NCBI GenBank assembly: GCA_037974665.1
Contig: CM075764.1
Location: 87,476,825-87,540,824, forward strand
Length of the DNA stretch: 64,000 nt
DNA from: Ehretia macrophylla
Taxonomy: Eukaryota > Streptophyta > Magnoliopsida > Boraginales > Ehretiaceae
Reading direction: 5' to 3'
Part shown: one piece after another, positions 12,601-59,001 of the stretch
How the letters are laid out: each line of letters begins with the position of its first letter
How positions within the stretch are numbered: the first letter of the stretch is position 1
The notes under the pieces: model-generated
The model's database searches: none
Seen by the model: the letters and a program-made list of their open reading frames with translations, nothing else
What the model was told of the DNA's origin: nothing
Program-made: the position numbers and the translations under genes

Positions 12601-12601
12601 G

Positions 12602-13283: not shown

Positions 13284-13692
13284 GTTCTTAAAGGGAAAGA
13301 GAGGTGATAGGAACAGGTGGAAATGGTTGTATAAAAATTAAAGAAGAGTAGTGGGAGTAAGAGGAGAACAAAACGCACGATGTAGTGAGAAAGAAAGTTG
13401 GAACAAATGAGTGGAGAAAGTCGGTTTTTCGTTTTAATTATATTTTTTAAATTAACAGTCAAGATTCATTGTAATTAAAAAAAAAAATGAAACATAAGTT
13501 ATGAGAGAATCTTGATCCAATCAAAAAAAGCCTGTAAAATCAGAATTTAAGTATAGTTGTTGTGGAATTGTTTAGGATCATACATAATCTCATTTGATTG
13601 AATAGGATCATACCTGATCATTCAAAATCTTCTATATTTGTTGAATAAATATCACTTATAAAGCTTTTATACATTAATCTTTTTGCTTCTTG

Positions 13693-19598: not shown

Positions 19599-19800
19599 GA
19601 AAAAATTACATAAATATTCCCAGATGTTTCACCAAAATTTTAAATTTATTCATATTATTTAAAATTAATCAATTTAGTCCTTAATATTTTTTTTTTAAAA
19701 TAAAAAATAAGAACAAATTTATTTTTTTATAAAATAATAGAATCATAAAAATAAATTTAAATTTTTTTTTAAAAAATAGCACCATTTGCACTATTTTTCC
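19599..19800. mobile_element. Small foldback MITE related to the 10.2 kb element
   Basis: The left end GAAAAAATTACATAAATATT and right end (inverted GGAAAAATAGTGCAAATGGT) enclose AAATTTTAAATTTATTC-type inverted arms like those at 10186-10556. Flanks GATGTAAAA and AATATAAAA agree at 7 of 9 bases, a decayed 9-bp duplication. Confidence 0.55.
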
Positions 19801-20686
19801 TAATATAAAATGTCATCCTTTAGCCACAGTTGCAGTTGATGACTGATAGATCTATGCCATATGTTTAGCCATCATCATTATATACTATAAGAGAACAACC
19901 AAGAGTGTCATGTGTCGCTTTATGAACATTTGTAAATATTTTTACAAAAAATTAAATAATTATATTATTATATGCAGATATACTACAAAATTAATTTTGA
20001 AATTTGGAAAGGATTTTTACAGATTAATATTACCGATAATTATCCTGATCATATTATATTTAGATAAGATTACTCTAAAAACCATATCATGCCAAGTTTA
20101 AATTTTTGAAATTATTTTTACAGATTACAATATTTCAAATAGATAGAAACTTTGAAACTTTGATATGATTCTGAAAGATTATAATATTTCTATTTTTATT
20201 AACTTTGTGCTACACGCCATGTGGATATAAATATTTTAATATTAAATAGATTTTTCAGATAATAATTAAATGTAATATTATTTAAATCATATTATTTAGA
20301 TTTATATTTTATTTTTTAGTATAATTTACATCATATTATTTGGATTTAAATACAATATTATCTAAATTATATCAATTAAATTTATATTTTATATTTTGTT
20401 AAGATTTTCTATCTACCTAGGACTCTATCATTTCTTATTTCAATTTTTTTTTTTATCTCTATCCGTATGTTATCTCTACTTTATCGTAGAAATCTTTATT
20501 TTATTAGTAACGTTATCTCTACGTGTTCTCTCTTCTTTAAACTGGTAAATTGGAGTCTGAAAAATCAACGTTTGCGCAGGTAATACTATCTATTATAATT
20601 CAAGCACTAATACTATTATTTTTCTATGTGATGTTATTTTATTCGATTTATTTTTAAGCTGTTAAAATTTTACGAATTATTTACAG

Positions 20687-20769
20687 TCTGCAGAGGGTGA
20701 GCTTCAACTTGTGGCCAATAAAGCACCAGACTTTGAAGCAGAGGTCGTTTTTATCAGGAATTCATCAAG
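20687..20769 (+). pseudogene. Captured exon of a chloroplast 2-Cys peroxiredoxin gene
   Basis: The segment has an AG acceptor (TTTACAG before 20687) and a GT donor (AAG/GTAATC at 20770). It translates as AEGELQLVANKAPDFEAE then VVF. After one missing base it continues QEFIK. The 2-Cys peroxiredoxin family has ELPLVGNKAPDFEAEAVF followed by DQEFIK at this exon, so the match is unambiguous. The conserved GN has become AN, and a one-base deletion shifts the frame. The catalytic Cys exons that should follow were not found downstream. It is a fragment trapped inside the Helitron, not a gene. Confidence 0.82.
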
Positions 20770-22660
20770 GTAATCATGCTTGTATCATACCTGCATATAC
20801 GACCACTTTGTTTTTTGTCATCCTATCAATTGCATGTTTTTATTTTATTTTATTTATAAGACATCTGATACACGCAAATGAATCCAAAATGTGTATGCAA
20901 CATTCCTTTTATGGACGTGCTAGGGACTATATCATATGTTAAATTTGAAAAGTAATAATATTGAGGAAAAGAATAGCAAATAGGAGAGACAAAACAAAAG
21001 TAGAGTAGTGTGTTCAATGACTAGATTCAGAAAAATCACAGAAAGTTGGAGACACATTCAATTAGAATTACTTGGTTATTTGGGTATACAATTAAAAACA
21101 TTACAGGAGTTTGCTCAAGTTCATTACTTAAAATTTATTTTAATTCCTGATCGATATTTGTTAGGATTTTGCTTGTGAACTTAAGGAAAAAGGTGAAAGT
21201 TAATTGTCTCATCTTCACTACATAGATCTATGACGTTTGTTTATTTAAAATCTTTTTAGAAACCTTCGTTGCTTGTCAAAAAATTCTTGTTACTCTAAAG
21301 TTTTTCCTCTCTAGCTGCATCCTTGTAGTGTATTTGTTAATGGTCTGTGAGAGAATAAAACTCTTATAATGTGAAAGTTATGTAGTACCTGGAAAACCAT
21401 ACATCCACATGAGCTTTTTAGGCCTGTTTACTTTCGTAGCGGCTTACCTTCTGTTTAGACTCAACCAAAATTTTTCACAACTTCTTTTGTTTCCTGCCCT
21501 ATATGTCTAATGCATATGTACTATAGGCAATGATAGATTATGTATTTCTGCAGTACTAAAAAATAAGGTCTGATAAGCACATGATTTCAGTGACCTTGTA
21601 GGTTGAGAAGCAGTAATAAAGAATGGTGTAAAGCATATTCAAATAAAACTCTTGAATAAGATTTTAGCAGCATTATAATGACACTCTAAAATGACGATTG
21701 GACTTTTATGTTGCCTATAGTAATAGTTGCATGAATCCTCATGTCTCATGGCTTATTCATTTATTTATTGGTGGCATATGGATATTAAATTCATTGTTAT
21801 GTAGGTTTGACATATAGCACTTTCATATGCATTTGTCTTTCTGGCATAAATTTTGGTCAGTACATGGAAGAGAAAACTGTAGGTCTATTTGGATATTTCT
21901 ATGTTTTTCAAATTCATGGCTCATATTTAATCTAATCCTCATAGAATTAAAGGCCTTGTGAATGTATTCAGAATGCTAAAAAATGATGTCGTCTATATAT
22001 ACACTTATCTTTCATGTCGTTTTTAATCTCTGTTATAGTGCTTTTTCTGTGGCATATTACTGCAGTTGCCTATAATCTGTCTTTCATATTCATCTTGGTT
22101 TTAAAGGGTTGGAAGTTTGTTGATGATTTTGACATTTCATTTGCTCAGTATTTAAAAGGAAAGGTACATTGAGATCGTATGAAGTTGATTATATTCAGGC
22201 ATGCCTTTCTCCCTATTCTTTTGTAGAAGAGAATGGGGATTTAAAATTTAGCAAAGTGGTTAAGGTTTTGGAGATGCTAAGTAACATTTGGTGTTTGATA
22301 ATTTTCCCAACTGTGTTGATGCATGATTTATAGCTAGATCTTTAATCGTTGTACCTGTTGTTTATTGATATCATGCCAGGACTTATTTAGTGTTAGTGCC
22401 AAGATCAAATTGAGAGGTATTGGATATTTGTTATGAATTGATATCCATGTTTTTTCCTCCGTTGAATCCATATCTTGGTATCAATAGCGAGTGTAGACAT
22501 TTTTCATTCCATCATTGTACGTCACAAGTAGTTGGAGTTTTACCTAAAGGTCATATGATATTTTCACGTTAAATGGGTGACAGTATTTTTGTGGTATCAT
22601 TTCATAGTGATGGTTATCTGTTGCTGATTATATCTATTAGAGTAATTTGTATTTCACTTG
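20770..22660. other. Helitron 5' interior between captured exons; no gene recognised
   Basis: This is less AT-rich than the flanks and intron-like, with repeated T-rich tracts before AG. A possible exon-like block near 22106-22165 reads GWKFVDDFDISFAQYLKGK before a GT, but I do not recognise it. It may be the remaining introns and exons of the captured genes. Confidence 0.4.
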
Positions 22661-22665
22661 GGCAG

Positions 22666-23147
22666 ACGCTCCAAATCTCCAAGTTCTTCCAATTTTTCTC
22701 CATCCCTGAGGTATATGCCCTAAGCGCGTCTTATTGCCTTTACCTGGTATTCTTGATTTATAGTGAAACTAATGTGTAGCTTCTGGGATTTTATTCAGAC
22801 GCAGGTTTTCGAGGTTATATAGCAAGTCATTCTCTAATTCGAGAAGTCATTCAGAGTATGATTTTTAGTAGAGTTAATGATTATTTTAATAGATAATTCA
22901 TTAGTTACCATGATTATTAGGTAGATCCATATCTTTGTCGCCGAATTATGTGACGTCTAAATTATATACCACTATTTCTCTTTTGTGTCATTTCTCTTAA
23001 TGATTGTGACTTGCTCATTGACTTACATCTCAGTGAGAGACTAAGGTCTAAAAGTATATCCAGATCACCCCAATCAAGAGGTCGTTCTATATCTTCGGAA
23101 AGGATAGAGCGCTCTCTGCCAAGACATTCTATTTCACCACGTTGGAG
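22666..23147 (+). pseudogene. Captured exons of an arginine/serine-rich (RS-domain) protein
   Basis: Three short exon-like blocks with AG/GT borders are arranged in order. They are 22666-22710 (RRSKSPSSSNFSPSLR with split first and last codons), 22799-22856 (RRFSRLYSKSFSNSRSHS) and 23034-23147 (ERLRSKSISRSPQSRGRS and then SSERIERSL). RS-dipeptide-rich exons separated by short introns are typical of SR splicing factors and RS-domain cyclophilins (CYP63/CYP95 type). I cannot decide which. The plus orientation matches the Helitron genes. Because only these exons are present, I read them as a gene fragment captured by the Helitron. Confidence 0.55.
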
Positions 23148-23831
23148 GTGTTCGCCTTGTTGTTAACTCTTTTTCCTGGTTTTATAATTCAATGTAAACC
23201 TTGGCGTCACTTTTTCATAACAAATTTCATACTTTAAATTTGTTTTTGATTTCTTTCTCCTTGGAAGTTTTAGATGGCCATACAAATTGATTCCATTAAA
23301 GACACCACTCTAGAAAAAGAGTCATGGACAATTATAGTGAGGGTGGTCCGTCTTTGAATGCTACCCAATTTCAACAATCACTCCATCACTAATTCGATGG
23401 AGATGATTTTAGTCGACAAAGAAGTACGTAATTATATTTGCTCCAATTAATTTATTCTTTCATTAATTAATTGTATCATACTTGACTATATTTCCACCAA
23501 TTTTATATCTTAGGGAGGGAAAATACATGCTACAATCAAGAGGACGTTGGTTTACAAATTTAAACCTTTAGTAAGAGAATGAGAGGTTTATGTCATGGCA
23601 TTCTTTGGGTTTGGTCAAAATTATGGTAGTTATCCTACTACCAGACATCGCTTTCGTCTCAACTTCCAATTTAATACCAGTATAAGACAAGCTAAAAAAA
23701 ATGTAATAGACCATTATGGACTTGACTTTCAATCGTATGATGATATTATGATGAGGAGTCCAGATGATCCTTATCTAATAGGTTGGTTACTCAAACTACT
23801 CAAATAAATTATTAATGTATTGCTTTGTTTT

Positions 23832-24077
23832 TAATAAGAGGAAATCAGTCTTTCCTGATACTCCTCTTTCACAATCTGTACAGGCTAAAGATCAGGAGTA
23901 ATCTTTGTACAATATCCCTAGTCTTAGGCTGTCAAGAAAGATCTTAGCATAATATCGCTAGTCATTAGGCTCTTAATGTTTACTGCCTATTATATGCTCA
24001 TTACACTCTGTATATATACATGATGTATCAATACAAGAAATATAAGCTTCATTTGCTCAAACTCGTTAGTCTCTTTA
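23832..24077 (+). repeat. 5' LTR of the copia element
   Basis: Begins TAATAAGAGGAAATC and ends GTTAGTCTCTTTA. Contains TATATATACATGATG near its 3' half, a plausible TATA element for element transcription. Confidence 0.93.
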
Positions 24078-24090
24078 TGGTATCAAGAGC
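24078..24090 (+). other. Copia primer-binding site
   Basis: TGGTATCAAGAGC lies immediately after the LTR. It matches the initiator tRNA-Met primer site TGGTATCAGAGC with one inserted A. Confidence 0.9.
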
Positions 24091-24182
24091 ACATTTGGCT
24101 CCCACGGGCAATTGATCCAGGCCTTCAAATTTTTTTTTTCCCCCTTTTCATCCTACTAGCCACCTCTTTCAAGTCTCATTCC

Positions 24183-27100
24183 ATGGCCACTCAAGCCTCA
24201 GATGGCTCCCCAGTGACTACAGCCGAGAATAATACCTATCAATAACTCGACAATCTCATCTCTATTAACGTGACAAATCAGCTACCCCTCAAACTAACCG
24301 CAACCAATTACTACTCCTGGAAAACCTAATTTGATGCACTTCTCTATGGGTACAACCTCCTTGGTTTCATTGACGGCTCCAATCTTTGTCCCCCTGCGGA
24401 AATCATAATTGACAGCAAAAAGACACTCAATCCAGCCTACACATTTTGGATGTGTCAAGACAAACTTTTGCTCCTTGGATTATTGGCTCACTCAACCATA
24501 ATGTTGTTTCGATTAGTCGCTCTTGCACAACATCAGCCGAAGCTTGGAAACGTCTTGCCAAGAATTATGCTAATACATTTTCTTCTCGAATTATGGGATT
24601 GGCTGAGTAGCTTACAATTATTAGATGTGGCTCACAATCTATTGTTGAATATCTCGCTGCCATTCACGACATTACAGATGAACTTAAATTAGTTGGTGCT
24701 CCAGTTCCACCTCAATATCTAATCACTCATACATTGAATGGTGTTGGCCCTGAATTCAAAGAACTTGCTACAGTAGTTCGTGCTCGCGACACGGTAATTA
24801 GTTTTGATGAGCTTCATGACAAACTTGTTGAATATGAAGCTTTCCTTAAGCGCGAAGAACTTCGCTCCAATGGCCAGTTCGGGTCTATGACAGTTAACGC
24901 AGCTCCAAACATGACTACTCATCCAACAAAAAACAATTTCACAACAACAAAGAAATTATTTCTTCCAGCTTCTTCACCAACTGTCAATGCTGCCACTACC
25001 CATGCTTCCAACACCCCAGTCTCTCAAAATTGGCTCTTAGACTCCAGGGCGTCGCACCATGTGACTGATGATCTACAAAATCTTTCTCTCCGTCAACCTT
25101 GCGAAGGTCCCGACGACATTGTAATTGGTGACAGAACAAGTTTGCAAATCACTCATGTTGGCGACTTGACAATCTCAACCCCCTCAAGATCATTTTCTCT
25201 ATCAAATGTTTTATGTGTTCCTTCAATTAAAAATAATATTCTCTCAGTCATTCAATTTTGTAAGTCTAACAATGCATCAATTGAATTTTATCCTACTTCT
25301 TTTTGTGTGAAGGATCTCACCACTGGGGCACATCTTGCGGTGGGGTGGAGCAAGAATAATGTCTACAAGTGGTCTGCCACTAAGCCACTTGAATCAACAA
25401 TAAAACAGGCTTCTGTTCGTATTAAAGCATCATTGGATCACTAGCATGATAGACTTGGACATCTGTCCTCTCAAATTCTTCGGCAAATTATTTTTAGTCA
25501 TAATCTCTCACTCCTCCATAATTCCCCTAAGTCATTATTCTGTGATTCGTGTCATTGTAACAAGAGTCATAGATTGCCTTTCGGCATTTCTACTTTAATG
25601 AGTTCTCAACCACTTGAGCATATATATACTGATGTTTGGGGACCTTCTCTTGCTCACTTTATTGATGGCTTCTCATATTATGTAGCATTTGTAGACCACT
25701 TCACTAAATACTCTTAGCTTTTTCCACTTGCTCAAAAATTTGAAGTTTTCAATATCTTTCCCAAATATAAGACTATGGTCGAAAAGTACTTCAACACCTC
25801 TATAAAAACAATCTACTCTGATGGTGGCAAAGAATATCAAGATTTAAAAACTTTACTCGACCATCATGGCATTCAACACCTCATCTCTCCCCTATATACA
25901 CCGCAACATATCGCAATAGTGGAGCGTCGTCATCGACATATTGTTGAAACTAGTCTCACACTTCTCCATCGCGCATCACTCATACTCTCTTTTTGGTCAT
26001 TCTCATTTAAAACAACCATATATCTCATTAATCGCCTTCCTACTCCTATTCTCGCCCATAAATCACCTTACGAATGTCTCTTTCGATTATTACCTAATTA
26101 TTCCAAATTATGAATTTTTGGATGTTTGTGTTACCCCTGGCTTCGACCTTACACATCTCACAAACTTGAACAAAAATCGCGTGCATGTGTCTTCCTTGGC
26201 TACTATAATATTCACAATGCTTACCTATGCTTCGAACCCCTCAGTCACAAATATTACATTTCCTGTCATGTTCAATTCATAGAAAACCTTTTCCCATCCT
26301 TACCAACATTCACAACTAGGGACAAAGTCAATGCTCATATACTTTCCACTTGGTGTTCGAAATCCCCAACTCTTTCTTCCGTGGTATCGTTGACGGATCA
26401 GTCTAAACAGCCCATAATTGCACCTCCCACTGATCAAGCTCCAATTTTTCTCATTCCATACAAGCCTCCTCATAATATTCCTTCACTACTGTCTCCTCAT
26501 AATACATCATCCCTTAGTGACGTCTAGGATTCCAACAACTCAAATCATGCCAGTGATTCAGTCATGCTCAATCGTGACACTCTAGACTAGTTTTGTACCC
26601 TCCCTTGTCGCATCACCCCCTAATACCACTATAACATCATCTCAAATAGCTCACCCACAGCCAACTCATCACATGCAAACTAGATCAAAAAATAATGTGT
26701 TTTGCCCCAAACAAATATTTTCTCTCACAACTACTAAACACCAATTCCCACCCTCCAATGAACCTACTTTTGTCTCACAGGCTGACAAGCATCAAGAATG
26801 GAAGGATACCATGGCTGATGAACTAAGGGCACTTGAAAAAAATAGAACCTGGGAGTTAATGCCTCGTGAAGCTCATCAAAATATTATTGGTTGCAAATGG
26901 GTCTTTCGAATAAAACGAAACCCCGACGGTAGCATTGCTCGATATAATGCCAGACTTGTTGCTAAGGGATTCCACCAATGGCTCGGGCTTGATTATACTA
27001 AAACGTTTAGTCGGTCATCAAACCTACCACCATATGGGTTGTTTTATCTATTGTTCTTTCTCATGGTTGGCAAATTAATCAGCTCGACGTCAACAAGGCC

Positions 27101-28290
27101 TTCTTTCATGGGCACCTTAATGAAGAAGTTTTCACGTCCCAACCTCCGGGCTTCGTTGATAGCACTCATCCATGCCATGTTTGTCGCCTCAAAAAGTCTT
27201 TATACGGTCTCAAATAGGCCCCCCGTGCATGGTTCACTGAGCTCAAGACATTTATTTTATCACTTGGCTTCATCAACTCACACTCGGACTCGTCACTCTT
27301 TGTCATGGCTGATAAATCTCTTTTGGTATATATTCTAATATGTGTGGATGATCTATTGATAACAGGGAATTCTCACTCATTTGTTCGCAGTACCATATCA
27401 GTTCTATCTCAAAGGTTCTCCATGAAAGATCTTGGGCACAAATTTTTTTTTCTTGGTGTCGAGATAATTCCTTCTCCAAATGGGCTGCTTTTATCATAAC
27501 AGAAGTATATCCGATATCTATTGGCTAAATTCAATCTAGATGGTATGAAAGAAGTTGTAACTCCTCTTAGCTCAAGCACACTTACTCTCACGGATGGCTC
27601 CCCGCTTGCCGATGCATCCCATTATAAGAGTCTCGTTGGTGGCTTGCAATACCTCTTTATTACGCGCCCTAATATCGCTTATGATGTTAACAAATTAGCT
27701 CAATTGATGCATTCTCTAACACAAAACCATTGGACTACTGCAAAACGGCTTTTTCGTTACCTAAAACACACGATCCTTCATGAACTATTTCTTCAACGAG
27801 CTCAACCTCTTGACTTAATAGCATATGCAGACGCTGATTGGGCAGGAAACCGTGATGATTATACCTCAATTTCAGCTTACATCATATTTCTTGGTGGCAA
27901 TGCCGTTTCATGGTGCTCCAAAAAGCAAAGAACCATAGCACATTCCTCAACCAAGGTGGAATATCGCTCTGTTGCTTCCGCTGCCGTAGAGCTAAGTTGG
28001 CTCACAAATCTTCTTCGTGAGCTACATCATCTAATCACCAAGCCTCCACGACTACTCTGTGACAATATTGGCACCACATACTTTTGTGCCAATCCTGTCT
28101 TCACTCGCGGATGAAACACCTAGTCCTCGACTATCACTTTGTAAGGGAAAAGGTGCCAGCTGGCTCACTACAAGTCACCCATGTCTCCACTCACGCTCAA
28201 CTTGCAGATGTGCTAACCAAGCCATTAGCTAAATCCCGTTTTTTCCTCTTACGATCCAAGATTGGTGTTACCCATGAAAACATCATCTTG
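24183..28290 (+). pseudogene. Copia gag-pol, decayed
   Basis: Gag starts MATQASDGSPVTTAENNTYQ and keeps the UBN2-type block NYYSWKT and ARDTVISFDELHDKLVEYEA. A CCHC zinc knuckle is absent: the sequence passes straight from gag to protease. Protease is WLLDSRASHHV (usual DSGA has become DSRA). Integrase keeps HDRLGH, the second zinc half (CDSCHCNKSH), DVWGP, YSDGGKE and the IVERRHRH acidic block. RT has GCKWVFRIKRNPDGSI and CVDDLLITG; RNase H has DADWAGNRDD and SSTKVEYRS. Stops include TAA 24243, TAA 24327, TAG 25442, TAG 25715, TGA 26111 and TAA 27497, plus frameshifts around 24450-24700 and 27040-27310. Not able to make its own proteins. Confidence 0.93.
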
Positions 28291-28298
28291 CGGGGGCA

Positions 28299-28544
28299 TA
28301 ATAAGAGGAAATCACTCCTTCCTGATACTCCTCTTTCACAATCTGTACAGGCTAAAGATCAGGAGTAATCTTTGTACAATATCCCTAGTCTTAGGCTGTC
28401 AAGAGAGATCTTAGCATAATATCGCTAGTCATTAGGCTCTCAATGTTTACTGCCTTTTATATGTTCATTACACTCTGTATATATACATGATGTATCAATA
28501 CAAGAAATATAAGCTTCATTTGCTCAAACACGTTAGTCTCTTTA
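28299..28544 (+). repeat. 3' LTR of the copia element
   Basis: Same length and ends as the 5' LTR, with seven base differences by eye. Followed by GTTTT, the target duplication, and then by the remaining 30 bp of the host intron and its acceptor at 28578-28579. Confidence 0.93.
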
Positions 28545-30495
28545 GTTTTTTTACATTGTTTTAAATCTTCTTATATTAGACGTTATCGGTCTCCTGACTG
28601 GTGTTGGAGTCGAGAGATAAATTGGAAAAAGATGGAACTTGTACCAAGATGCTGGTGATAGAGCTTAGTGATTGTAGTAGGTAATTACCTATATGTTTAC
28701 ATCTTCCATATTTGTATTAATTTTTTTTTGATCCATCTGTTCCTAACTTCCATATATATTAGGTTGAAATTGGAGTGTACCTTATTTGGTGAATATGTGG
28801 ATCAAGTTAACTCCTTTCTTGCAAGTAGTGAGGATGTTGATAAAATTGTGGTTATTCAATTTTGTAAACCTAAGACTTTTAAGGGTATGTGTTATTGTCT
28901 ACCATTATTCTTTTATAATTTTAAACTTTTAGGTTAATGCTTACTCTAAAATGTTAATTATAGGCAAAATTGTCATTCAAAATGTGAGGTATACAACCAG
29001 AATTCTGTTCAATGCTGTCATTCTAGAGGTTGAAGACTTCAGGAAAAAGGTGATTATTTATTAATCGTGCTATTATTAGTTGTAAATATTATATTCATAT
29101 AAATATTTTTGCTTTTTATAATTAATATATTTGGTGTTCAATATTCCAGTAGGATATGCAGAAAGCTCTCAAGTTCTTAGTCAGCATTCTCAACCAAATA
29201 ATTACTCTTTGGAAGATGATTTCCTCTGTCTAACTCCTCGAAAAACCATTGAAGAGATTAAGGATATGAAATAGGTTTTATTAATTTATTTATCTTCATC
29301 TGAAAACATTATTCAAATGTTATTACTTTATTATGAGTGTTTTAGCTTATTTATATTTTTTTATTCATATATCTTTTCAACTCATTATTGCTAACAATTA
29401 TAGGATACTCAATGTGTCACTTTTGCAACCATTGAGCATATCATGAGGAATGAACCTTGGTTCTATACCTCATGTAAAGAACATTTCAAAGCCGTATACT
29501 CTGATTATGGAATGTATTTTTGTCAATTATGTGACTCCCATATTATGTCAGTTATTCCAAGGTAATTAATATGTTCAATTTTTCAGAGGTGAATATATTA
29601 ATTTTTCATTCATTAAAACTTTTTGATTCTATAATATTTACTCTTATAATAAACTTAAAGATACAAGATCAAAGTGAGAGTATGCGATGGAAATGATAGC
29701 ACTACATTTGTAATTTTTGATCGGGATGCTTCTCAAATGTTAAGAAAATCGTGTGCGGATATGATCGAACATGTGAAAAAAGGTAATATGATCTTGTCAA
29801 TAATATGTTTTACATTTTGCAAATCTTTTTCAAAATTTTGCATTTACTAAGACTCTTTAATTAATGCAGCATGGTGACATGCAAAATGGACCCGTTGAGC
29901 TTGACCTGTGGTTGGACAAAAAATTTCTTTTTAAAATTGGTGTTAAAGTCAATGTTGTAAACCACTTTGAACCTTCGTATGCCGTCAAGAAGATGACTAA
30001 CGATCCAGCTCTTATTAATCCATTTTTGTCATCTGCATTTTCAAATGAGGTAGTCTAATTGTCCCCAAAATAAATATACAAGTTCTTTGTTGAATACTTA
30101 AACGTATTATAATTTAGTTTTTTCATTAATTTTTCCTCAAACACTTAATTTTTTAATTTTGGATAAGATATCTGATGTTAATGGAGGTGCATCAAGTTCA
30201 GCAAGCGTTGGCAATATAACAACAGTGATATTGAATTTATATCCTCTTATTTATTACTTATAACTAATTCTTTTGGACTTTTGATTTTACTTATTGTTGT
30301 CATTTTTTGGTATTGTAGGAAGTTGAAGTCATGTCTAATTGCTTTAAAAATGTTGAGGAGGGAGAGAATTCAAGTTTGTATGTCACTCCTCCTAAAAGAG
30401 TTAGGAATGAAGTATCAGATAAAGAGACTATTGAAGGTGGATTTGATATGTCTTCTACTAAGACGAGGAAGGTGATTAAGAAAAAGAAAGATTGA

Positions 30496-31290
30496 TTGTC
30501 AACAATATTGTTTTGCTTTTTTCATGACGAATTACGTATCGTATGATGTTTTATGATACTATTGAGATTTTACCTTGTTTTTTTTTGAAATAGTATCCTT
30601 ATTTGGATATCTTTTAATAATATTTTAAATAATATTACAAATACTTTACGTCGATGCTTATAGGGGCATTGTCTATTGAATGATGGATTAAATACAACAA
30701 TATTAATTACCTTCTTACGTGTTATTTGACTTCTTTAGTGTATCAATTGAAATTTTTTTATTTTAAGATAAACCTGTTGCTTTAAACAAGTATGTTAAGT
30801 ACTATAAAACTAATTTAATGAGTACATTATATGATTAAATTTCTCAAAAACATAAGGACATAAAATCTTTATTATAAAATTATTTACTTAAATTTTAACA
30901 TCTCTACAAATAAGATATTCAATTTTCAAATGTTGATATATTTGTAGTACAATTATCACTACATTGCTTCATTTAATAAATTTTTTACCTTTCTTTAATA
31001 TATTTTTATACTTATTCGAATATATTTTATAGACTTCAATTATCACCCACAATTTTGATATATTATTATTAATATTTTTATTATTATTATTTTAAAAACA
31101 AGTATCATTATAACAATATGGAGGTGATTTTGACCAATCCCAATTAGGACATCATGTTAATATAAAGTGTCCAAAAGGAAATTCTGTAACGACTGGTTCC
31201 TTCGAAAATGTTTCATATACAATAGTAGATGATAACAATGATAACTTTTATAGACATCTAACAATAGAATTGTAATTCTCTTTCATATTC
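30496..31290. other. Spacer between the RPA-like and Rep/helicase genes of the Helitron
   Basis: AT-rich sequence with no coding signal. It probably holds the 3' end of the RPA-like unit and the promoter of the Rep/helicase gene. Confidence 0.45.
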
Positions 31291-31295
31291 TACAA

Positions 31296-34200
31296 ATGTT
31301 GTTTATGTTAATAATAATAACTTTAACGACTCTTGCAATGACAGGAGTTGCACGTTGCTCTCCAAATAGGATGAATGATCATAGTCCTAATATGCAATTT
31401 GGTCCAAAAAATGGCATAACTTATTTAGCAATTTTTCACAATGCTTCAAATGCTGAGAATATTCCTCCAAATATGATAGGTACCCAACATAGAAATACTT
31501 CGACTCTTGATACTGATGGTTAGTCATGATCTATTTGTGTTAATTTATTTTATAAAATTTTAAATCACACATTTTCTATTATAACTTACTAAAATAGTGC
31601 AATGGTTTCAAAATTACTTTTTGCAGTTCAACAAGCAACTAATAGTTCCTTCCATGCCTTGCTTGAACGGGACATCCAAACTACTCATTTATCCATACAC
31701 AATCAGAGAAACAGAACAATAGAGCAATTGGGAGTAAGTCAACATTTTGCAAATAGTTTGGAACAACAAGTGCAATCCTTCAAATTGACTTCATATTCCC
31801 ACCTTGGGTAAATTTTTCCAAACTCATGCATTACTATGTTGATATATTTCGTACTTATTAATTTTGGTTTGTTGTATTTTATAATGAAGCGAAAAAGTTC
31901 ATGCAGTGGAATTCATAAAATACTTATTATTAATTTTATATGATTCACTTCTTCCTTAGAATACTAATTTCATATTGGGGAATATAAATTTATTTCTTAA
32001 TTTCATTTTTTATTGTTGATATTCATAACTAGGGATCAATGGAGCAATATGAATGCACGAATGAGGATAAAATCAATAATGCTAGAAAAGCGTTTTCAGA
32101 AGAGAATAATAGCTAAATCTAATCTATCTTCCAAATCTTCCAAATGTCTTAGTCCACCAACTTCTCAGTTAGTCTATCCAAATAACGACCTGCCAAATGG
32201 TAGAACTCCATTGAGAGATATCTCAAATGGTGAGTGTATAAAACTATTTGTTGAGCATTTGATTTATTTTATCTGTTACAAATATCAATATATTTATGAT
32301 GTCATGTAATTGAGTTTCATAATTAATATTTGTAGTACAAACATCAATTGAGAATTCGTATGGTCCCATGCATGACCAACCATTGCGCCAGATCTTACCT
32401 TTATCCATCTACTATATATATATGTATATATCTGATAAATTTGTCAAGCACATGTATCTATCAAAAAAATGATATTCATTTTTGGCTCTAAAGTAAATAT
32501 TCCAATTGCATGAAAAAAATGGTGTAGATAAAAATTATCTTTCTTATCATTATTTTTTTATGACGAATTTTATATATTGTTATTGACTTTTACTTTTTTT
32601 TTCTTCAATGAACTCATTATTGTAAAGAGAAAAATCAAGATTTTCACTCACTAGACGTAAGTGCGGCACGAATGAAGAGCTCATGTGCTATGCAGTCTCC
32701 GAGTATTTTACTCAGTATTTGTATTACTTAATACTGTGAATTAAAAATATTATTTAATGGTTTGTAATAACCTTATGTTTAACGTTCTTCTCATTTGTCT
32801 TTACTATTTTAATTTGTCATTTTGTATATATTTTTATTCAGTAAAAGACAGTTTTTGCTAACAGTTCAGTTAATGTTGAAGGTTGTATCAATATACTATT
32901 AAGTTTTATTTGTCATTCAAAATTCTGATACACGATTAATAATCTAATATCACTATTTATTGGTTCACACAATGACATGAATTGATATAAGATTCCGTGT
33001 TCAAGCTGAGTCATCCGAAAATAACTTTTCTTACGATATGGGATGTACTTTCTTTCATTGCTCCTAAGAACATTAAAATCAATATAATCCTTGATTTTAT
33101 TACCAACAAAAGACTAATATCATTTTCATTCAGAAGAAGAAGAAAATGAAGATGAGCCCAAAATTGATGAAGAAATTTTCAATGATTCAGGTAGTTGTGA
33201 TTGCACTATATATACTTTGATATTCTTTAAAAAAATATAGATAAACTCTATATGGATTTGTTCAAATTATCTTTTCGCTTTTCTATTTTATTTTGTGACA
33301 TTTATTTTAATATGAAGGTTCAAAATTTTTACATTGTAGTTTATTGGGATATCGGGGATGCAACACATACTTGCAGACGTTGCGGAGCAACTATGTGGTA
33401 TGGCGAGAGAATTAGAAAGGATAGAAATTCTAAGAATCCAATATTTACTTTGTGTTGTTTAGATGGCAAAATCCAATTTCCTCTTCTTCAACATGCTCCT
33501 CTACTTTTGCAAAACTTACATTCCAATCAAAATGATCATAGCAACCATTTCTTGCAGAATATACGCCAATATAATATGATGTTTGCTTTTACATCTTTTG
33601 GGGGAAAAGTGGATACCACAATCAATATAGACGGAAAATCTTATATTTTCAAAGCGGGTGGTCAAAATCATCACTTGATAGGCAACCTATTTTCTGCCGA
33701 TGATGAGACTCCTAAATTTGCTCAATTGTACATATATGATACAGACAATGAAGTAGACAACAGGTTGAGATCATTCAAGTAAGGAATCTTATGGCATAGA
33801 GTATAACTTTTGTTTTAACATAGTCAACTTCTATTAAACTCTTTATGACAGGTCATTTGAAAATTCTGCTCCATTGAATTCTGAATTAGTTGGTGCCTTG
33901 AAAGACATGCATGATGAAAATAATGTTTTGGCTAAATCATTCAGATATGCGAGAGATCGCTATAAAGAAGAAGATCTTAATGACACCAAAATGGTGTTGA
34001 TTAAAAAAAAAGACCATGATAGGAAAACTTACAACCTTCCAACAACATCTGAGGTAGCTACTTTGGTAGTTGGGGACATCAATGAATATGTGGGTAATAG
34101 AGATATTATAATAGAGACAAAGTCTAAAATGTTGAAAAGAATTGATGTGAATCATCCCCAATATCTTGCCCTACAATACCCATTATTATTCCCATATGGT

Positions 34201-37200
34201 GAAGATAGCTTCAGAAGTGATATTTCTATTAGCGAATGTGAAAATTCATCTAATAGAAAAAAACTCTCAAGGATTTCAAACAGATCAAGAAAAAACATTA
34301 GCATGAGGGAATTTTTTGGATTTCGACTTCAAACTAGAATAAATGAGTCCCCAATTTTGCTTCAGTCACGAAGACTATTCCAACAATTTGTTGTAGATGC
34401 ATATACAATGATAGAAGCAGAGCGTCTGAATTTCATCTGAAATAATCAACCACAAGTAAGAGCAGATATGTACAAGGGTTTAGAATATGCTATTCTTCGA
34501 GGTGAAACTGAAGCTTCATCAATTAGAAAGCAGATCATTCTTCCATCGTCATTTACTGGAGGTCCTAGGTACTTGATACAAAATTGTAAAGATGTTTTTG
34601 CAATTTGCCGTTGGGCTGGATAGCCTAATCTTCTTATCATGAACACATGCAACCCGAAATGGGTAAAGATTGAAAGACTTCTTAAACCAAGAGGACTTAA
34701 GCCTGAAGATCGTCCAGACATTATTTGTAGAGTATTTAAAATAAAGCTTGATCAGTTACTAAAGGATTTAAACCAAGGGCTCATTTTTGGACAAGCTAAG
34801 GCATGTAAGTATTTATTATTTCTCAGTATTCCCACATGTTATCTTTCATTATATTACTCCTGATTTGAAAACTTGAGATTATAGTTTCAAAATCCAACCT
34901 TAGTTGTTATTCGCATTGGATACTCTTTGTTAACATTATCACTTATCCAACTATATCATTGTCTTTTGTAGTTCACTTTTAATTCATATTCTTTGACATT
35001 TCCTATGTTGACAATTGTTTTATACGTCTAACAGATGTATGTACCATAGAGTTCCAGAAACGTGGCCTCCCTTATGCTCACATATTATTGTTTCTCCATC
35101 CAGACGACAAAGCTATGGTCAAGATATTGATAAAATTATTTTAGCTGAAATACCATCTAAAGAGGAAGATCATATTCTATATGTTGTTGTTGAAAATTTC
35201 ATGATACATGGACCATGTGGCCAAGCAAATCTAAAATGTCCTTGCATGAAGAACGGAAAATGCTCTAAAAGTTTCCCAAAGAACTTTAAAGGGGTCACAA
35301 CTATTGATGAGGAAGGATTTCCTCAATACAAAAGAAGAGAAGATGAGCGGACTGTTACTAAAAAAGGAATTCAGCTCGATAACCGATATGTTGTCCCTTA
35401 TAACTCAATGGTTCTCTTGAAATATCGTGCTCACATTAATGTTGAGTACACATGTCAGACAAATGCAATCAAGTATTTATTCAAATATATTCACAAGGGT
35501 CACGATAGAGTCACAGCAGCTCTGTATCATAGACCTGCTAATGAGGATCAAGCTCAAGTTGCTGATGAAATTAAGATTTATTATGATTGCAGGTATATAT
35601 CGCCTTGTAAGGCTGCTTGGAGAACTTTTGCCTTTGATATTCATTTTGAATGTCCACTTGTACAGAGGCTATCATTTCATCTTCCCCAAGAAAAAATAGT
35701 TGTATATAAGGATAGTAAAACCCTTGAAGATGTTAAAAAAAAGGCTAATACAAAGAAATCAATGGTTGAAGCATGGATAGAGGCAAATATGGAGTATGAG
35801 GAAGCTAATGAGCTGATGTATACGGAGTTTCCAATAAAATATGTTTACAAAGAAGATGAGCACAAGTGGTATCCAAGGAAAAAAAGCTTTGTTATTGGAA
35901 GAATATCACATGTGCCTCTAGTCAACAAGGAATACTATTATCTTAGGATGCTTTTGAATTTATAAAAAGGATGCAAACGCTATGAGGATATTAGAACTAT
36001 CAATAATGTGCAATATCCTACATTCAAAGAAGTTTACTATGCACTAGGTTTATTAGAAGATGATAGAGAATATATTGATGGAATAAATGAAGCAAGCACT
36101 TCGGCATCAGCATCTTACATTAGAAGACTTTTTGCAACTTTATTGACATCCAACAATATAAGCAGACAAGAAAATGTATGGGAGAGTTGCTGGAGAAAAA
36201 TGGTCGATGATGCTCTTTACCGACAGAGAACTGAGAGTATGTTTTCTGATCATATATCAAACGTTAAAATTTTCTATTACACATTAATTTTCAAGTTTTT
36301 TCTTATATATTATTATAATATTTCGACCAAATAAACTTTGAGTTCTTGGATTCTATTGTTTGACATGAATTCTTATTTACTGATAATTTTCTTTTTTTAT
36401 TTGAAATACAACAGGCTTGACTTTAACTGATGATGAGCTTAAAAATCATGCTTTGCTAGAGATTGAAAAGTTGTTATAAAGCAATGGGATAAGCCTTAAA
36501 GATTTTGAGACAATGCCCTACCCGAAAAATGGTTGTTTGTTATACGGAGTTCATAATAGATTAATCCTTGATGAGTTAAATTATGACAGGACACAATTGG
36601 CTGAGGATTATAAAAGGTTATTGTCATTTCTTACTGATGAGCAAAGAAATGTTTATGACCATATAATGACAATTGCTTCAGAAAATAAAGGGCGGTTTTT
36701 TTTTTGTACATGGATATGGAAGTACTAGAAAGACTTTCATTTGGAAAACTCTATCAGCAGCCTTCAGATCAAAAGGTGAGATTGTTCTTAATGTTGCATC
36801 GAGTGGAATTGCGTTTTTGTTACTGCCAGGTGGTAGAACAGCACATTCTAGATTTGCAATTCCTATACAAATTGATGAAGATTCAACATGTAACATTAAG
36901 CAAGGAAGTCCACAAGCTGAATTGTTGATAAAAGCTAGGTTAGTCATATGGGATGAAGCCCCAATGGTTAATCGATTTTGTGTAGAAGCTGTAGATAAAA
37001 CCCTTAAAGATATTCTTATGTCAAAAAATTCAAATGTGTCAAAAGAGCCTTTTAGGGGTAAAATCGTTATTTTGGGGGAAGATTTCAGACAAATCTTGCT
37101 TGTCATTCCATATGAAAGTAGACAATAAATTGTACATGCAACGATAGACTCGTCCAATTTATGGCATTTTTGCAAAGTTTTGACTTTGACAAAGAATATT

Positions 37201-38123
37201 AGACTTAATACTGGAACTTCGACACCAAATGCAAATGATTTAAGGGAATTTTTTGACTAGCTGTTGAGAATTGGAGATGGAGAAGAAGGTGATTCTAAAG
37301 ACGGTGAGTCAATTATAGAAATCCCTGATGAAATGCTTATCAAAGACTCTGAGGATACATTTGCTGAACTTGTGAATTTTGTTTACCCTGCTTTTATTGG
37401 ATAATATGTCTGAAGATCATTTTTTCAAAGAAAAAGTTATTCTTGCTCCAACATTAGAACAAGTTGAGATGATAAATGATTACTTAATGTCTATAGTACC
37501 TAGAAGTTGATATGATAAATGATTACTTAATGTCTATAGTACCTAGAAAGGAAATAATCTACTTAAGCTCAGATAGTGTTTGCAAAGAAGATGCAAATGT
37601 TGACTGTGAGTTGGATGCATTTTCTCCAGAGATTTTGAATACTTTTTCTTGCTCAGAACTTCCAAACCACAAGTTAAAACTCAAGGTTGGAGTCCCAGTG
37701 ATGTTAAGAAATATTGATCAATCTAATAGTTTATGCAATGGAACAAGGTTGCAAATTACCAAGCTTGCTAAACATGTTATTGAAGCAAAAATTATTTCTG
37801 GGAGTAACATAGGAAATATTGTGTTAATACCCCGGATGACTATGATCCCATCTAACCACAGTTTACCTGTTAAATTTTCGAGAAGACAATTTCCTTTGGT
37901 TGTAAGTTTTGCTATGACTATAAATAAAAGTCAGGGTCAAACTCTTTCCTACGTTGGGCTGTATCTTTCAAGACCTGTCTTCAGTCATGGACAATTATAT
38001 GTTGCACTTTCCAGAGTGACAAGTAAACAAGAACTGAAGATTTTGATAGAAGATAGTGATGATAAAGTATCAAAAACTATAATTAACGTGGTGTACAAAA
38101 AAGTGTTCCAAAGAATAAATTAG
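31296..38123 (+). pseudogene. Helitron Rep/helicase (RepHel)
   Basis: The spliced N-terminal part (about 31300-33200) includes a LPNGRTPLRDISN block. It is followed by DIGDATHTCRRCGATMWYGE, a Helitron_like_N region (34140-34800), the Rep core (35035-35510) and a PIF1-type helicase (36610-38115). The two Rep tyrosines are present in AIKYLFKYIHKG, but the HUH motif reads PYAH (first His is Tyr, codon 35073-35075). Walker A reads GYGSTRKT instead of GYGGTGKT; Walker B LVIWDEAPM and the C-terminal QGQTL and [10 protein letters not shown] motifs are intact. An intron is clear at 34805-35034 and another near 36238-36415. Stops include TGA 34438, TAG 34621, TAA 35963, TAA about 36477, TAA 37126 and TAG 37258. 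Frameshifts lie near 35110, 36700 and 37505. Confidence 0.92.
37462..37547 (+). repeat. 43-bp tandem duplication inside the helicase
   Basis: AGTTGAGATGATAAATGATT and the following bases to ACCTAGA are repeated at once with one mismatch (37462-37504 and 37505-37547). As 43 is not a multiple of three, it shifts the reading frame. Confidence 0.9.
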
Positions 38124-38826
38124 GTAAGTGTGTATTTCTTATAATTTACATCATACATTTGATTCTACTTAACATGTTTATATTCCTTTTCATTAATGTT
38201 TACGTTATATGGTAATGGTAGTAATAAAAATAAAGTCTTATGTTATATGATTTATAAGATGATTTGCGCAATATTTTGATTTTAATCAAATCATATCTTT
38301 AAATTTAGTGTTAACTTACAAAAGTATAAGATTACTTCAAAAGAGTAGAGTAATATACATCTACCTATAAAGCTCTCAATGGATTTCAAAATCAAACATG
38401 TTTACTAAGTGAAAGCATAATAATTTTGTGTTAGTTTTGATTCATTATAAACCTGCCAAGGATTTTTCAAACACATGTTTATATATGTTAGGCATAGTCA
38501 AATAATATTTTTTTGTGCAATGCAGAGCATTGCTACATCTTCTGTAGAGAAGCATTGTATGACAAGATTGACCATTGGATCCACAAAATTTTTGGCGATA
38601 AAAAATGGATTGGATGCAAGACAGATAAGGAAAGAGTAAGAATGACATGTATCTTTTGGAATGTTTGATCCATATAAATAGTTATTGCTATCACTTTTCA
38701 AAAAATAGGTGTTTATATTTATTTTTTATTTATTTAAAGATTTATTAGATATTATATAACACAAATTGAATCAAATAGTTTTATATTTTATATTTTAAAT
38801 CACTCAAAATAAACTCATGCCACACC

Positions 38827-38852
38827 CGTGCATCGCACGAGTATAAAATTAG
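38827..38852 (+). other. Helitron 3' terminal hairpin and TTAG end
   Basis: Stem CGTGC/GCACG with an ATC loop, then AGTATAAAATTAG, then host T. The hairpin-plus-CTRR arrangement marks the Helitron rolling-circle termination site; here the first base of CTAG is T. Confidence 0.88.
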
Positions 38853-39939
38853 TTATGTCAAAGTGGAGACCCAATAATCTACTACCTAGCTGTCCAATAT
38901 TATGTGGTCAACTTGATACAATGATGTTTCTTTCAGCGCATAATCATTGCTATACTTTTGGTGATCACCACGCCTTTAATCGTACTTTCATTCTTAGTTG
39001 TGTTATCAAATAAAAGAAAATGTGAAACAACTGGAACAAAGAAGCTTGACAGTGGAGTAGCTGATTTTGCCACTTCATTGTAAAATAGTTTGGACGGTAA
39101 AATAAATTCAAGTAAAGTAAAAATTTTCAGTTAAAAATTTGGTGTCGTTACATTCGATGCTTCTAAAGGTTAAGTAGTGTGATTAAATAGTAATTAGTTG
39201 TGATTAAAATTTTTGAGGTCAAAATTATGTACTATTATAAATATTACTTGATCATTGATTGATTTGGAATATAGTACGTTGGTACAATGAATGTCTAATC
39301 CTTGACTGACTTACAACATTCATTAAGGTGCGATATCATATCATGAGATTTATAATTTTGTAGTAAATTTAATATGATTGTACTTAGAGTAAATTTTTTG
39401 TCATTCAAAAAAAATTTCCTTAGAACATGCATTGGTGCACATTAGATTATCATAAGTTTTTTAATTTTAAACTGAATCTAATATGATTATACATAAAGTG
39501 ATTTTTTTTTTGTGACAAAAAAAAAAAAGAATTGCCTTTTGTTGGTATTTTTTAAGACCTCCATAATAAGGCGCTCGAGAGTGAGCGAATGACCAAGAAT
39601 AAAAGTGAGAGTCAAAGAAAGAAAGAAGAAAGGCGCTAGAAAGGTGACAATCTTACGCATCTAACCATTGTTTGTATTTTTAACCAAAAAAAAAAAAAAA
39701 ACCCTCGTTTGCATTTCTCCGAGCCCACAATAATAATTAATTAGTGTCACCTTCCTTTTGTTTCACCAAAGTAAAAGTATTAGATGGTAAGAAAACAAAA
39801 TAGTAAAGAAATCATCGTCCATTGGCTTTTTTAATAGGGTCCAGAACTTTTATTAATAGTGTTTATCTAATGGGATCAAAGCACTTGGCATTGCACAATG
39901 CTAAAATTATTCTATTTGACAAATGGTTAATATAGTAAA
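38853..39939. other. Intergenic, no gene seen
   Basis: AT-rich. A loose repeat of AxxTGATTxTACxTAxAGTxAxTTTTTT occurs around 39370-39410 and 39478-39510. A GA-rich purine segment lies at 39590-39640. No coding or RNA feature is supported. Confidence 0.5.
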
Positions 39940-43175: not shown

Positions 43176-43254
43176 GACGGGAGAAGGGAAAATATGAGAT
43201 TTTGTTTTTTATATATAAGAAAAAGAGAGTGTGAAAAATATATGAGTTGTAGTT

Positions 43255-43845
43255 TTTTTTTTATTCATTAATTTTTTTTTATATTTATAATATGTCACCT
43301 AATTTTTTTTATTTATTAATTATTTTTTTATATTCATAATATGTAACTTATTTTTTTCATTAATTATTTTTTATTTTCATAATATGTCACCTAATTTTTT
43401 TATTCATTAATTTTTTTTTACCTTCATAATATGTCTCTTTTTTTTTTTCATTAAATATTATTTTTAATTCATAATATGTCACCTATTTTTTTTATTCATT
43501 AATTATCTTTTATATTCATAATATGTCACCTAATTTTTTTATTCATTAATTTTTTTTATCTTCATAATATGTCACTTTTTTTTATTCATTAATTATTATT
43601 TTTAAATTCATAATATGTCACCTATTTTTTTTATTCATTAATTATCTTTTATATTCATAATATGTCACCTAATTTTTTTATTCATTAATTTTTTTTATCT
43701 TCATAATATGTCACCTTTTTTTTATTCATTAATTATTAATTTTAAATTCATAATATGTCACCTTTTTTTTTAATTCATTAATTATTTTTTTTAAATTCAT
43801 AATATATCACCTAATTTTTTTTATTCATTAATTATTTCTTGGTCT
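43255..43845. repeat. Array of about 12 AT-rich units with CATAATATGTCACCT
   Basis: Occurrences of CATAATATGTCAC or near variants recur every 40-52 bp (about 43287, 43339, 43379, 43425, 43469, 43517, 43564, 43609, 43656, 43702, 43749, 43799), separated by TTTTTTATTCATTAATTA. The array directly precedes ORF1. Confidence 0.88.
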
Positions 43846-43888
43846 TACATAATTTAATACTAACTATCTTTTTTTTTTCTTTTCAGCT

Positions 43889-44818
43889 ATGGAGAATGCA
43901 GAAGGAGGTTTCAGGGGTCGCAATTTCACAATTCAAGAAGATATTACTTTATGTCACGCTTATATCGCAATTAGTGAAGATCTCCTTATAGGGATAAACC
44001 AAACATCGGCAACAATGTGGGATCGAATCCTTGAAAAATTCCATGAATGCTATCCCTCTGTTACTCCAATGGAAGCACGAACATCGAAAAGTCTAAAATG
44101 TCAATGAACGCCAATCAACCAAAAGTGCACCAAATTTGCAGAGTGTATTACACAAGTAAATTTAAGACCAAGGAGTGGAACAAATGCCACTGATATGGTG
44201 CATTTTTTTGGGATAATATTATTTTTCTTACATTCATCTGCCATGATTACTTATAATATTATTTTTGTTTTACAGATTGCTGATGCAAGACGATTATACT
44301 ATGCTGCGAAAAATCAAAATTTTCACCTCGATCATTGTTGGGCGATATTACAACACGGTCAAAAATGGAGAAAAATTATCGAGATCCATTTATCTGAAAG
44401 TGCATCGATGGCTGACACAGGTGCAAGTATGCCACAACCCGAGTCTCCGGTTGATCTTGAGAACAACACTTCATTTTTTGTACAAAATGACACTCCGGAT
44501 GAGTCGGTGCCTAAGACCCCAAGCGGGCCCTCATCTGCGAGGCCTATTGGAAACCAACAAGCTAAAAGACTCAAAAAAGGCAAAGACGTTGCAAGTGAAA
44601 TCCTCCAGCAAGGGAAAAATATGGAGAAAATGATGATGGAGTACAAAGAAAGTTTTGAAGAACAAAAAGATTTCAATATTATGTCGATGAAGACTTCTAC
44701 CATCGAAACTCCAGAAAGAAGGGTGTGGATGATCGAACGACAAAAAGCAATTATGGCAAAAAAGGCCTCCCGTTCGATAAACTTTGACAATGATGTTTAT
44801 CGTCCCGATATGCCTTAA
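43889..44818 (+). pseudogene. Harbinger ORF1 (Myb/SANT-like DNA-binding protein with NAM-associated C-terminus)
   Basis: Exon 1 starts MENAEGGFRGRNFTIQED and carries the SANT-like block with LCHAYIAISEDLL and MWDRILEKF. In frame, KCQ is followed by TGA (44105-44107) where the family has Trp (RWxxINxxxxKFxGC); the frame then continues TPINQKCTKFAECITQVNL. An intron from about 44195 to 44274 joins NATDM to IADARRLYYAAKN and FHLDHCWAILQH. The C-terminal part has RPIGNQQAKRLKKGK, the usual GxKxAK motif. ORF1 assists the transposase in DNA binding and nuclear import. One TGG-to-TGA change is the only lesion I see. Confidence 0.85.
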
Positions 44819-45046
44819 TTATTTGTATTTGTAGTAGATAATTATTTTTCAAGTCAATGCCTTAATTATTTGTATTTGTATTTGTATTTGTAGCAGATAA
44901 GTATTTTTCAATTCAATGTCATGTTATGCCTTAACCATTTTTCCAATGCAAAGTCATGTTTAACATTAACACAATAGGATAATTATTTTAAAAAGATCGA
45001 CATACAAAAGATAGTTAATTAAACGTCTTCCTAATACAGATTGCAA

Positions 45047-46378
45047 TTACATATTGATATTTCCTGCACGATATTCATTCCAAATGTGTTCAACGAGATC
45101 ATTTCGGAGAATATAGTAAGCAGCTTCATCTCTGATTTGAGCTCGATTGATTAGATATTCATTAATAGTTATAGGGTCTCGATTTGTTTCGACTGGGGGC
45201 TCTTCTACATGGTAACATGCAGGATCATCGTCGAAACCATCACCTTCTTCCTCCCGGTTATCTTCTACTATCATATTATGAAGAATTGTACAAGTCTTCA
45301 TAATCTCCTCAATATCACTCTCATGCCAAAAACGACATGGCCCTTTAATGATTTCAAATTGACTTTGAAGGACACCGAATGCTCTTTCGACATCCTTCTG
45401 GTATGCCTGTTGCTTCTAATTAAATAACATCTTATCCCTATCTTGTGTATTGGAATATGCCTGAACAATTGTGGACCACCGATGATATATTCCATTAGCG
45501 AGATAATATCCTTGTTTGTACTGTCAATCGTTGAGGGTATATTGTATGCGTGGAGTACCTTCAAGAATATTTGAAAAAATCGGTGAGCTATATAATACAT
45601 TAAGATCGTTACGCACACCTGGTGCTCCGAATAATGAATGCCATATCCAAGTATCATATGACGCAACTGCTTCAAGTATTATGGTTGGATGACCATGGTG
45701 TCCAGCATATGTTCCAACCCACGCAGTTGGACAGTTTTTCCATTCCCAATGCATACAGTCCAAACTACCTAGCATTCCTGGAAAACCACGTTGGTCAACT
45801 TTCCTGAGAAACCTAAACAGATCTACATTGTTGAGACGACGTAGATACTCGTTGCCATATAATGCATTGACAGCACGACAAATTTTTTTAAATGCCTCAG
45901 CATATGTACTTTCTGCAATTTTGAGATAATCATCGTTGGCATCTGCGGGCTTTCTGTACGCAAGCATACAGAGCGCGGCCATCATCTTGACGTGAGGAGT
46001 GAACCCTTGCTTTCTAGCTGCATCTGGTTTCTGCTTGAGGTAATTGTCATAATGCATGATATCTCCTATAATTTTGAGAAACAATTCGCGCCTCATGCAA
46101 AAACGTTTTGTAAATTCAGAAGCAGGATACAAAGGACGATCAACAAAATAATCATTCATAAGCCTGATATGGGCACCTACCCGATCTCTTCTCTTGAATT
46201 GTCGACGTGAGGATGTGCCTCCATGTTCGCCTGTACTATACTGATGTGCAACATGCATCATAGATTGATGTTGTCCGTACATCGTCATCATCATCACGTG
46301 TCCATGGATGTCGTTATCATGATGGCCAATGGAATCATGAACATCGAATGGAAGGGAATCGGCTCCTTGTTGGGACAT
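45047..46378 (-). pseudogene. PIF/Harbinger DDE transposase (harbinger nuclease)
   Basis: Reads MSQQGADSLPFDVHDSIG from 46378; an upstream in-frame ATG at 46444 is less likely. Key blocks are FTKRFCMRRELFLKIIGDI, GFTPHVKMMAALCMLAY and GSLDCMHWEWKNCP (first catalytic Asp). Next come FGAPGVRNDLNVLYSSPIF (second Asp), KDVERAFGVLQSQFEIIKGP (Glu) and ILHNMIVEDNR. The frame never shifts but holds two stops, TGA at 45524-45526 and TAG at 45416-45418, both before the catalytic Glu. Any product would therefore lack the third catalytic residue. The end is at 45047 (GNINM stop). Confidence 0.9.
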
Positions 46379-46489
46379 TGTAGATAGAGCAATATAGATT
46401 TGAGAATGAGTTGTATAGATTGTAGTATTTGATTGTGGTACCAAGAAAGGTTTGAGGTTGTGATATATATAGATTTATGAGTGGATAAG

Positions 46490-58974: not shown

Positions 58975-59001
58975 AATGGCAACCGTGAGAAGTGAATTAG
59001 A

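Follow-up and report, generated by a model that had tools for sequence, protein, structure and literature searches.

A degenerate full-length Helitron with captured host gene pieces and a nested copia retrotransposon in Ehretia macrophylla

A 64,000-nucleotide stretch of the Ehretia macrophylla genome (assembly GCA_037974665.1, contig CM075764.1, positions 87,476,825 to 87,540,824 of the forward strand; hereafter the window) contains what we read, with a probability of roughly 95%, as a full-length but degenerate copy from a plant Helitron family that carries captured genes and a nested copia retrotransposon (Table 1). The element is 18,978 bp long with the nested copia of 4,713 bp included, and subtraction of the copia and one copy of its GTTTT target duplication leaves 14,260 bp (18,978 - 4,713 - 5). 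An RPA-like gene and a Rep/PIF1-helicase gene (Rep/Hel) point the same way within it, and both of these transposition genes are clearly dead in the window copy. An initial annotation, made from the letters of the window, had placed the ends, the genes, their direction, the overall size (about 14.3 kb without the copia) and the nested copia where they were located here, and had described a former autonomous element. This description is supported by the presence of both gene families in one direction, by their complete domain order and by lesions that are mostly private to the window copy.

The borders of the element can be determined within its own genome. The assembly (1.58 Gb, 20 contigs) was searched for sister copies and for an empty site, the latter with a query made by fusing the 60 bases that precede 19875 to the 60 that follow 38852. 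This query matched 22 places, two of which were the window's own halves, and the junction is crossed in each of the remaining 20. An alignment of ten of these shows CATCA directly followed by TTAT in every case, with neither the Helitron nor any duplicated bases; farther from the junction, small indels distinguish them from the window. Because these empty sites read through, the Helitron entered a dispersed repeat between an A and a T, which fixes both of its borders. The element begins with TC at 19875, preceded by A at 19874. An alternative A-TC start three bases upstream (19872) was excluded by the empty-site alignment, whose read-through places the 5' start at 19875. The same border is common to four places in three flank contexts. 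In S6 and S7, which represent a single insertion that was later duplicated, similarity starts at A followed by TCATTATATA and the sequence upstream is unrelated, while L034 and L036 have the same 5' start and different flanks.

The 3' border was examined by searching the genome with the final 100 bases of the element and the single base after them. At least 40 scored places were found among 107 candidates, the window included, and 31 of these 40 extend to base 38853. Seven sister loci were extracted together with 1.5-kb flanks and examined by BLAST for the point where similarity ends, which lies at 38853-38856 in six and at 38846 in the seventh (L004). Their last four bases are CTAG (5/7), CTAA (1) or ATAG (1), and the next base is T in all seven. 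The 500-nt right flanks of the sisters are unlike each other and unlike that of the window, except that L006 and L007 share theirs at 96% and so represent one insertion that was duplicated later. The initial annotation had staked its reading on an empty A-T site and on sister copies with shared ends and different flanks. The former recurs in the 20 places above, and the latter were found for the 3' and for the 5' border, so that both boundaries recur elsewhere. One locus, L034, has both: it is a short but complete Helitron (1,905 bp), preceded by A and followed by T.

The window copy shows the features by which a Helitron is recognized, namely a 5' TC after A, a 3' end before T and an A-T insertion without target-site duplication, and its termini agree with those described in PMC6591975. 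The hairpin expected of Helitrons is also present, 13 bases before the 3' end and 13 bp long when counted as strictly paired with its loop; the published values are 15-20 bp and about 10-12 bases before the end. Folded as DNA, it reaches -4.6 kcal/mol (z -2.47), with one of 200 shuffles equally good. Two other candidate structures were rejected. A MITE-like (miniature inverted-repeat transposable element) repeat in the left flank (about 19634-19778) was considered as a split target, and none of the matches within the window extends across the border. An AT-rich likeness of 52 nt between the 5' and 3' subterminal parts was dropped since it resembles other AT-rich matches. An Rfam scan at gathering scores gave no matches, and searches of viral and prokaryote collections for relatives confirmed none. 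A text search of a collection of papers found no mention of the 13-base hairpin string, nor of the 10-base 5' string together with "helitron".

Table 1. Coordinates of the Helitron and its parts within the window (position 1 is the first base of the window).
Feature	Position	Strand	Basis or remark
Whole Helitron	19875..38852	+	sister borders and empty site; inserted into a dispersed repeat, with A 19874 before it and T 38853 after it
5' terminal region	19875..20057	+	begins TCATTATATA; 93.5% to S6/S7 over 19874-20057
Cargo 1: 2-Cys peroxiredoxin exon (~20688-20771) and upstream intron piece	20620..20771	+	frame broken; chloroplast type
Cargo 2: part of PWI/RS splicing-factor-like gene	22046..23165	+	cut inside RS-rich exon
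Multi-exon RPA-like gene	23274..30492	+	DUF223, Rep_fac-A_C, RPA70; interrupted by copia
Nested copia, gag and pol frames broken	23832..28544	+	in RPA intron; long terminal repeats and target duplication
Probable N-terminal exons of Rep/Hel gene	31341..33190	+	open exon-like stretches in line with the gene; inferred by eye
Rep/PIF1-helicase gene, broken	33339..38120	+	Helraiser 7lcc; PIF1, Helitron_like_N, Pif1_2B
HUH motif, reads PYAHILL	35070..35090	+	Helraiser alignment; first His (H593 position) is Tyr
Two-tyrosine motif KYLFKY	35471..35488	+	both Tyr retained (Helraiser Y727, Y731)
Walker A region, reads GYGSTRKT	36712..36735	+	Lys retained, loop altered
3' hairpin CGTGC-atc-GCACG	38827..38839	+	retained, with changes, in sisters
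3' terminal TTAG	38849..38852	+	before T 38853

When read through its breaks, the Rep/Hel gene gives an alignment to Helraiser (7lcc) that spans query residues 28-1439 of 1,444 (E 1.4e-244), and it matches the Pfam families PIF1 (E 6.2e-78), Helitron_like_N (E 1.1e-43) and Pif1_2B (E 1.6e-18). It thus combines an HUH nuclease with two tyrosines and a PIF1-type helicase, as a RepHel protein does, though the gene is broken by 6 stops in 1,437 codons read and by frame breaks, which include a tandem duplication of period 43 near 37469. A family search of the probable N-terminal exons upstream gave no supporting match; this segment is kept in S4 at 85%. The claim of the initial annotation that the genes keep most motifs in order holds for the order but overstates what is kept of the function, because the first HUH histidine has become a tyrosine and the Walker A loop is altered, and the extent of gene decay had been understated. 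In Helraiser, where the catalytic tyrosines are Y727 and Y731, transposition is reported to be abolished by mutating H593 and H595, either tyrosine, or K1068 (PMC4778049). The HUH motif reads HAH in all three sisters with data. None of five sisters with data has the Walker A residues of the window, with S3 and S4 carrying their own changes there. Additionally, S2 and S4 are changed in the WDEAP motif and S4 and S7 in motif VI.

The RPA-like gene has 2 stops in 503 codons read and a frame break. Its read-through finds DUF223 as the best Pfam family (E 2.5e-16), together with Rep_fac-A_C (E 4.2e-7), and its similarity to RPA70 structures is weak (8rk2, E 2.2e-8). With RPA70-like OB-fold and C-terminal domains and many introns, it might be suspected of being a host RPA70 captured by the element rather than the Helitron's own gene. 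Such an origin is highly unlikely in view of the DUF223 match, the occurrence of the gene in sisters and the comparison with eukaryotic RPA70 (made without a host plant RPA70), which scored only 36.5 bits across roughly 400 residues. Such a score is low for a conserved host gene. According to the rice survey in PMC4683698, core RPAs have a mean identity of 39% and plant Helitron RPAs form a separate clade. The DUF223 match and the low RPA70 score are only consistent with a place for the predicted protein within this plant-Helitron clade. In the zinc region (29464-29544), where four cysteines would be expected, one fewer is present in the window, S2 and S5. Since these are all of the copies with data, the reduced pattern appears to be a property of the family and not a product of decay.

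Two pieces of host origin are located between the 5' end and the RPA gene, each with its own donor-like gene in the genome, so that the host cargo proposed in the initial annotation is confirmed. The peroxiredoxin piece matches PDB entry 5zte at E 8.4e-6 over 28 amino acids, with X at the frame break (the first piece alone gives E 0.025), and has no match in Pfam. Its donor-like gene at C8:31.701 Mb has 82% DNA identity over 153 alignment columns; it encodes the peroxiredoxin C-terminal domain and runs to about C8:31.704 Mb. At the peptide level, this gene agrees with the cargo at 24 of 28 positions and a C12 paralogue at 19 of 28. The stretch with the peroxiredoxin cargo (20640-21110) was found in at least 40 scored places among 81 candidates, the window's own included; 10 of these 40 sit on C9 between 37.66 and 41.89 Mb, a span of about 4.2 Mb.

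The second piece shares 89-91% identity with a gene at C17:49.797-49.804 Mb. The open frames of this gene contain a long arginine/serine (RS)-rich stretch and a PWI domain (PF01480, E 2.7e-28 with two exon pieces joined, E 5e-11 and 3e-12 separately), which we take to be the layout of SRRM1-type splicing factors. At the right junction of this cargo, the bases TTA at 23163-23165 are common to the donor-like gene, the window, L036 and L037, and the right end of the capture is therefore visible at the base level. Both pieces have been spread in sense orientation by the family and its relatives and could conceivably feed small RNAs or chimeric transcripts back onto both donor genes, a candidate role that we consider a long shot. 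Separately, the approximately 358 bp between the two pieces (21113-21470) are represented by a few bases in S2 and S5, reflecting either an insertion here or a deletion there.

Some observations weigh against the reading of a full-length and formerly autonomous family member, and they concern both the ends and the genes. The 3' end of the window copy, TTAG, is one base off the published CTRR, which the family as a whole carries. A scan for a hairpin plus [CT]TRR-T performs at chance level, with 4 matches in the window on both strands against a shuffle mean of 2.08 and maximum of 7. Because this generic signature alone is not significant, the proof of the 3' border comes from the sister loci. 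The near-full sisters S2 and S5, on C6 and C19, stop short of the extreme 5' end, with S2 matching from 19933 and S5 from 20331. This last point would suit a composite in which a 5' Helitron fragment and host pieces adjoin a separate RPA/Rep Helitron by chance, as would L030, L031, L034 and L035, where the sequence read contains the 5' region or the splicing-factor piece but no RPA gene. However, the outer flanks adjoin at the empty site, so that one insertion spans everything, and S2 and S5 keep the same order from the 5' cargo through to the 3' end, each of these regions (5' cargo, RPA, Rep/Hel) showing 92-95% similarity. A chance neighbourhood, to which we give next to no credence, is thus refuted by the sister order and the empty site.

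The evidence on the genes is more divided. Lesions were compared in seven sister stretches; S6 and S7 lack data at all eight stops and the others have data at some only. Seven of the eight in-frame stops are absent from every sister with data, but the stop at 34438 is shared with S5, and the T-run frame break has the same length in three of five sisters with data. Some sisters must therefore be broken too. Furthermore, the copies differ without an excess at third codon positions, so selection on the source is not demonstrable from them; coding differences from S4 are about 0.07-0.09, fewer than the non-coding differences of about 0.11. These counts and the outgroup-based count given below exclude the copia and sites without letters in the compared copies, and the coding and non-coding counts also exclude the regions around frame breaks. 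The shared stop and T-run length, the missing third-position excess and the existence of short non-autonomous relatives would all be expected if the copy was already non-autonomous at the time of its move and depended in trans on another family member. We regard this as unlikely, though well within reason, because the HUH change is, like the seven stops, absent from every sister with data, which places most of the damage after the common source. The predominance of private lesions likewise means that most, though not all, of the decay postdates the making of the copy.

The nested copia has two long terminal repeats (LTRs) of 246 bp with 7 differences (Kimura two-parameter distance 0.029) and is flanked by the 5-bp target duplication GTTTT at 23827-23831 and 28545-28549. 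Its domains are Retrotran_gag_2, rve (weak, E 0.0014) and RVT_2, in the order gag, integrase and reverse transcriptase. All seven loci that cover its site (L024-L028, L036 and L037) are free of it. The LTRs end in TA...TA despite the clean GTTTT duplication, while the usual ends are TG...CA.

The history of the element can be followed further in its relatives. A genome search with the splicing-factor fragment found 15 places, among them the window copy with five sisters that continue into the RPA gene (L024-L028) and the donor-like gene (L029). At six loci (L030-L035), the splicing-factor piece is shorter and extends only to 22975, and in four of these the portion read also includes a match to the Helitron 5' region. 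The six loci may have arisen by deletion or may preserve an earlier stage of the capture. L036 and L037 are RPA-bearing relatives whose similarity begins at 23163 and is preceded by other sequence. With S4 as the outgroup, 198 of 8,620 sites (0.023) are derived in the window copy, compared with about 0.0145 per LTR in the copia (half of 0.029). As rough distances with no clock, these values fit an order of capture, spread, insertion and finally entry of the copia.

Based on these comparisons, the following course of events is very likely. Before the window copy arose, its lineage acquired the peroxiredoxin exon and the part of the PWI/RS splicing-factor-like gene, both of them in the interval that separates the 5' terminus from the RPA gene. 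A source copy equipped with both transposition genes (Rep/helicase and RPA), presumably active, would then have moved by single-strand, rolling-circle transposition, a chemistry suggested by analogy with Helraiser and the Helitron family, and the captured pieces moved along with the new copy. Insertion took place between A and T of the dispersed repeat without target duplication. The copy subsequently decayed through stops, frame breaks and the loss of the catalytic histidine, and a copia entered an intron of the RPA gene, presumably in that order.

The main features of the element have published counterparts in rice, maize and Ipomoea. Nine rice sequences of 8,064-15,513 bp carry a plant-Helitron RPA and an adjacent RepHel (PMC4683698). 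As described there for the Mothra sister-family and two further groups, these elements resemble the Ehretia copy and its family in the RPA adjoining RepHel, the TC start, the CTAG end (TTAG in the Ehretia copy itself), the 3' hairpin and the A-T insertion. In contrast to that description, the Ehretia copy comes from another plant and has two identified host pieces and broken genes. The maize element ZmhelA1 (14,632 bp) also has RPA before Rep/helicase and several captured gene fragments, eight in number, for which stepwise capture was proposed (PMC3288121). By that account, it keeps intact Rep and helicase and only an RPA remnant, whereas both genes are recognizable and both broken here. Compared with the pearly-s Helitron of Ipomoea tricolor (Choi et al., as cited in PMC3288121), the Ehretia copy has many more lesions, a nested copia and host cargo. 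Its Rep/Hel aligns over nearly the full length with that of the bat element Helraiser and keeps both catalytic tyrosines, but Helraiser is an animal element described with a RepHel transposase (PMC4778049), whereas the first HUH histidine is a tyrosine here.

Knowledge of Helitrons is unchanged by the Ehretia copy. It is instead an unusually complete worked example, in which one genome holds the empty site, both borders and RPA-bearing relatives without the splicing-factor cargo, in addition to donor-like genes, one capture junction, sisters that lack the copia and a short non-autonomous relative. The stepwise gene capture by this Helitron family could therefore be dated there.

The rest of the window contains several unrelated features. 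At 44108-46474, a Plant_tran match on the - strand (E 1.1e-41) lies beside a NAM-associated open reading frame on the + strand (E 3.7e-12), and this remnant is presumably PIF/Harbinger-like. Repeats of about 79 bp at 46491-46808 adjoin the Plant_tran remnant, and a T-rich minisatellite with a period of about 46-47 bp occupies 43230-43874. Long inverted repeats occur at two places, with nested arms at 12599-13286 and, at 54689-54984, a palindrome (81%) whose arms directly adjoin. Finally, two likely host genes are present, one consisting of Methyltransf_29 exons at 47317-51067 and the other, at 58996-59853, belonging to the inositol monophosphatase family.

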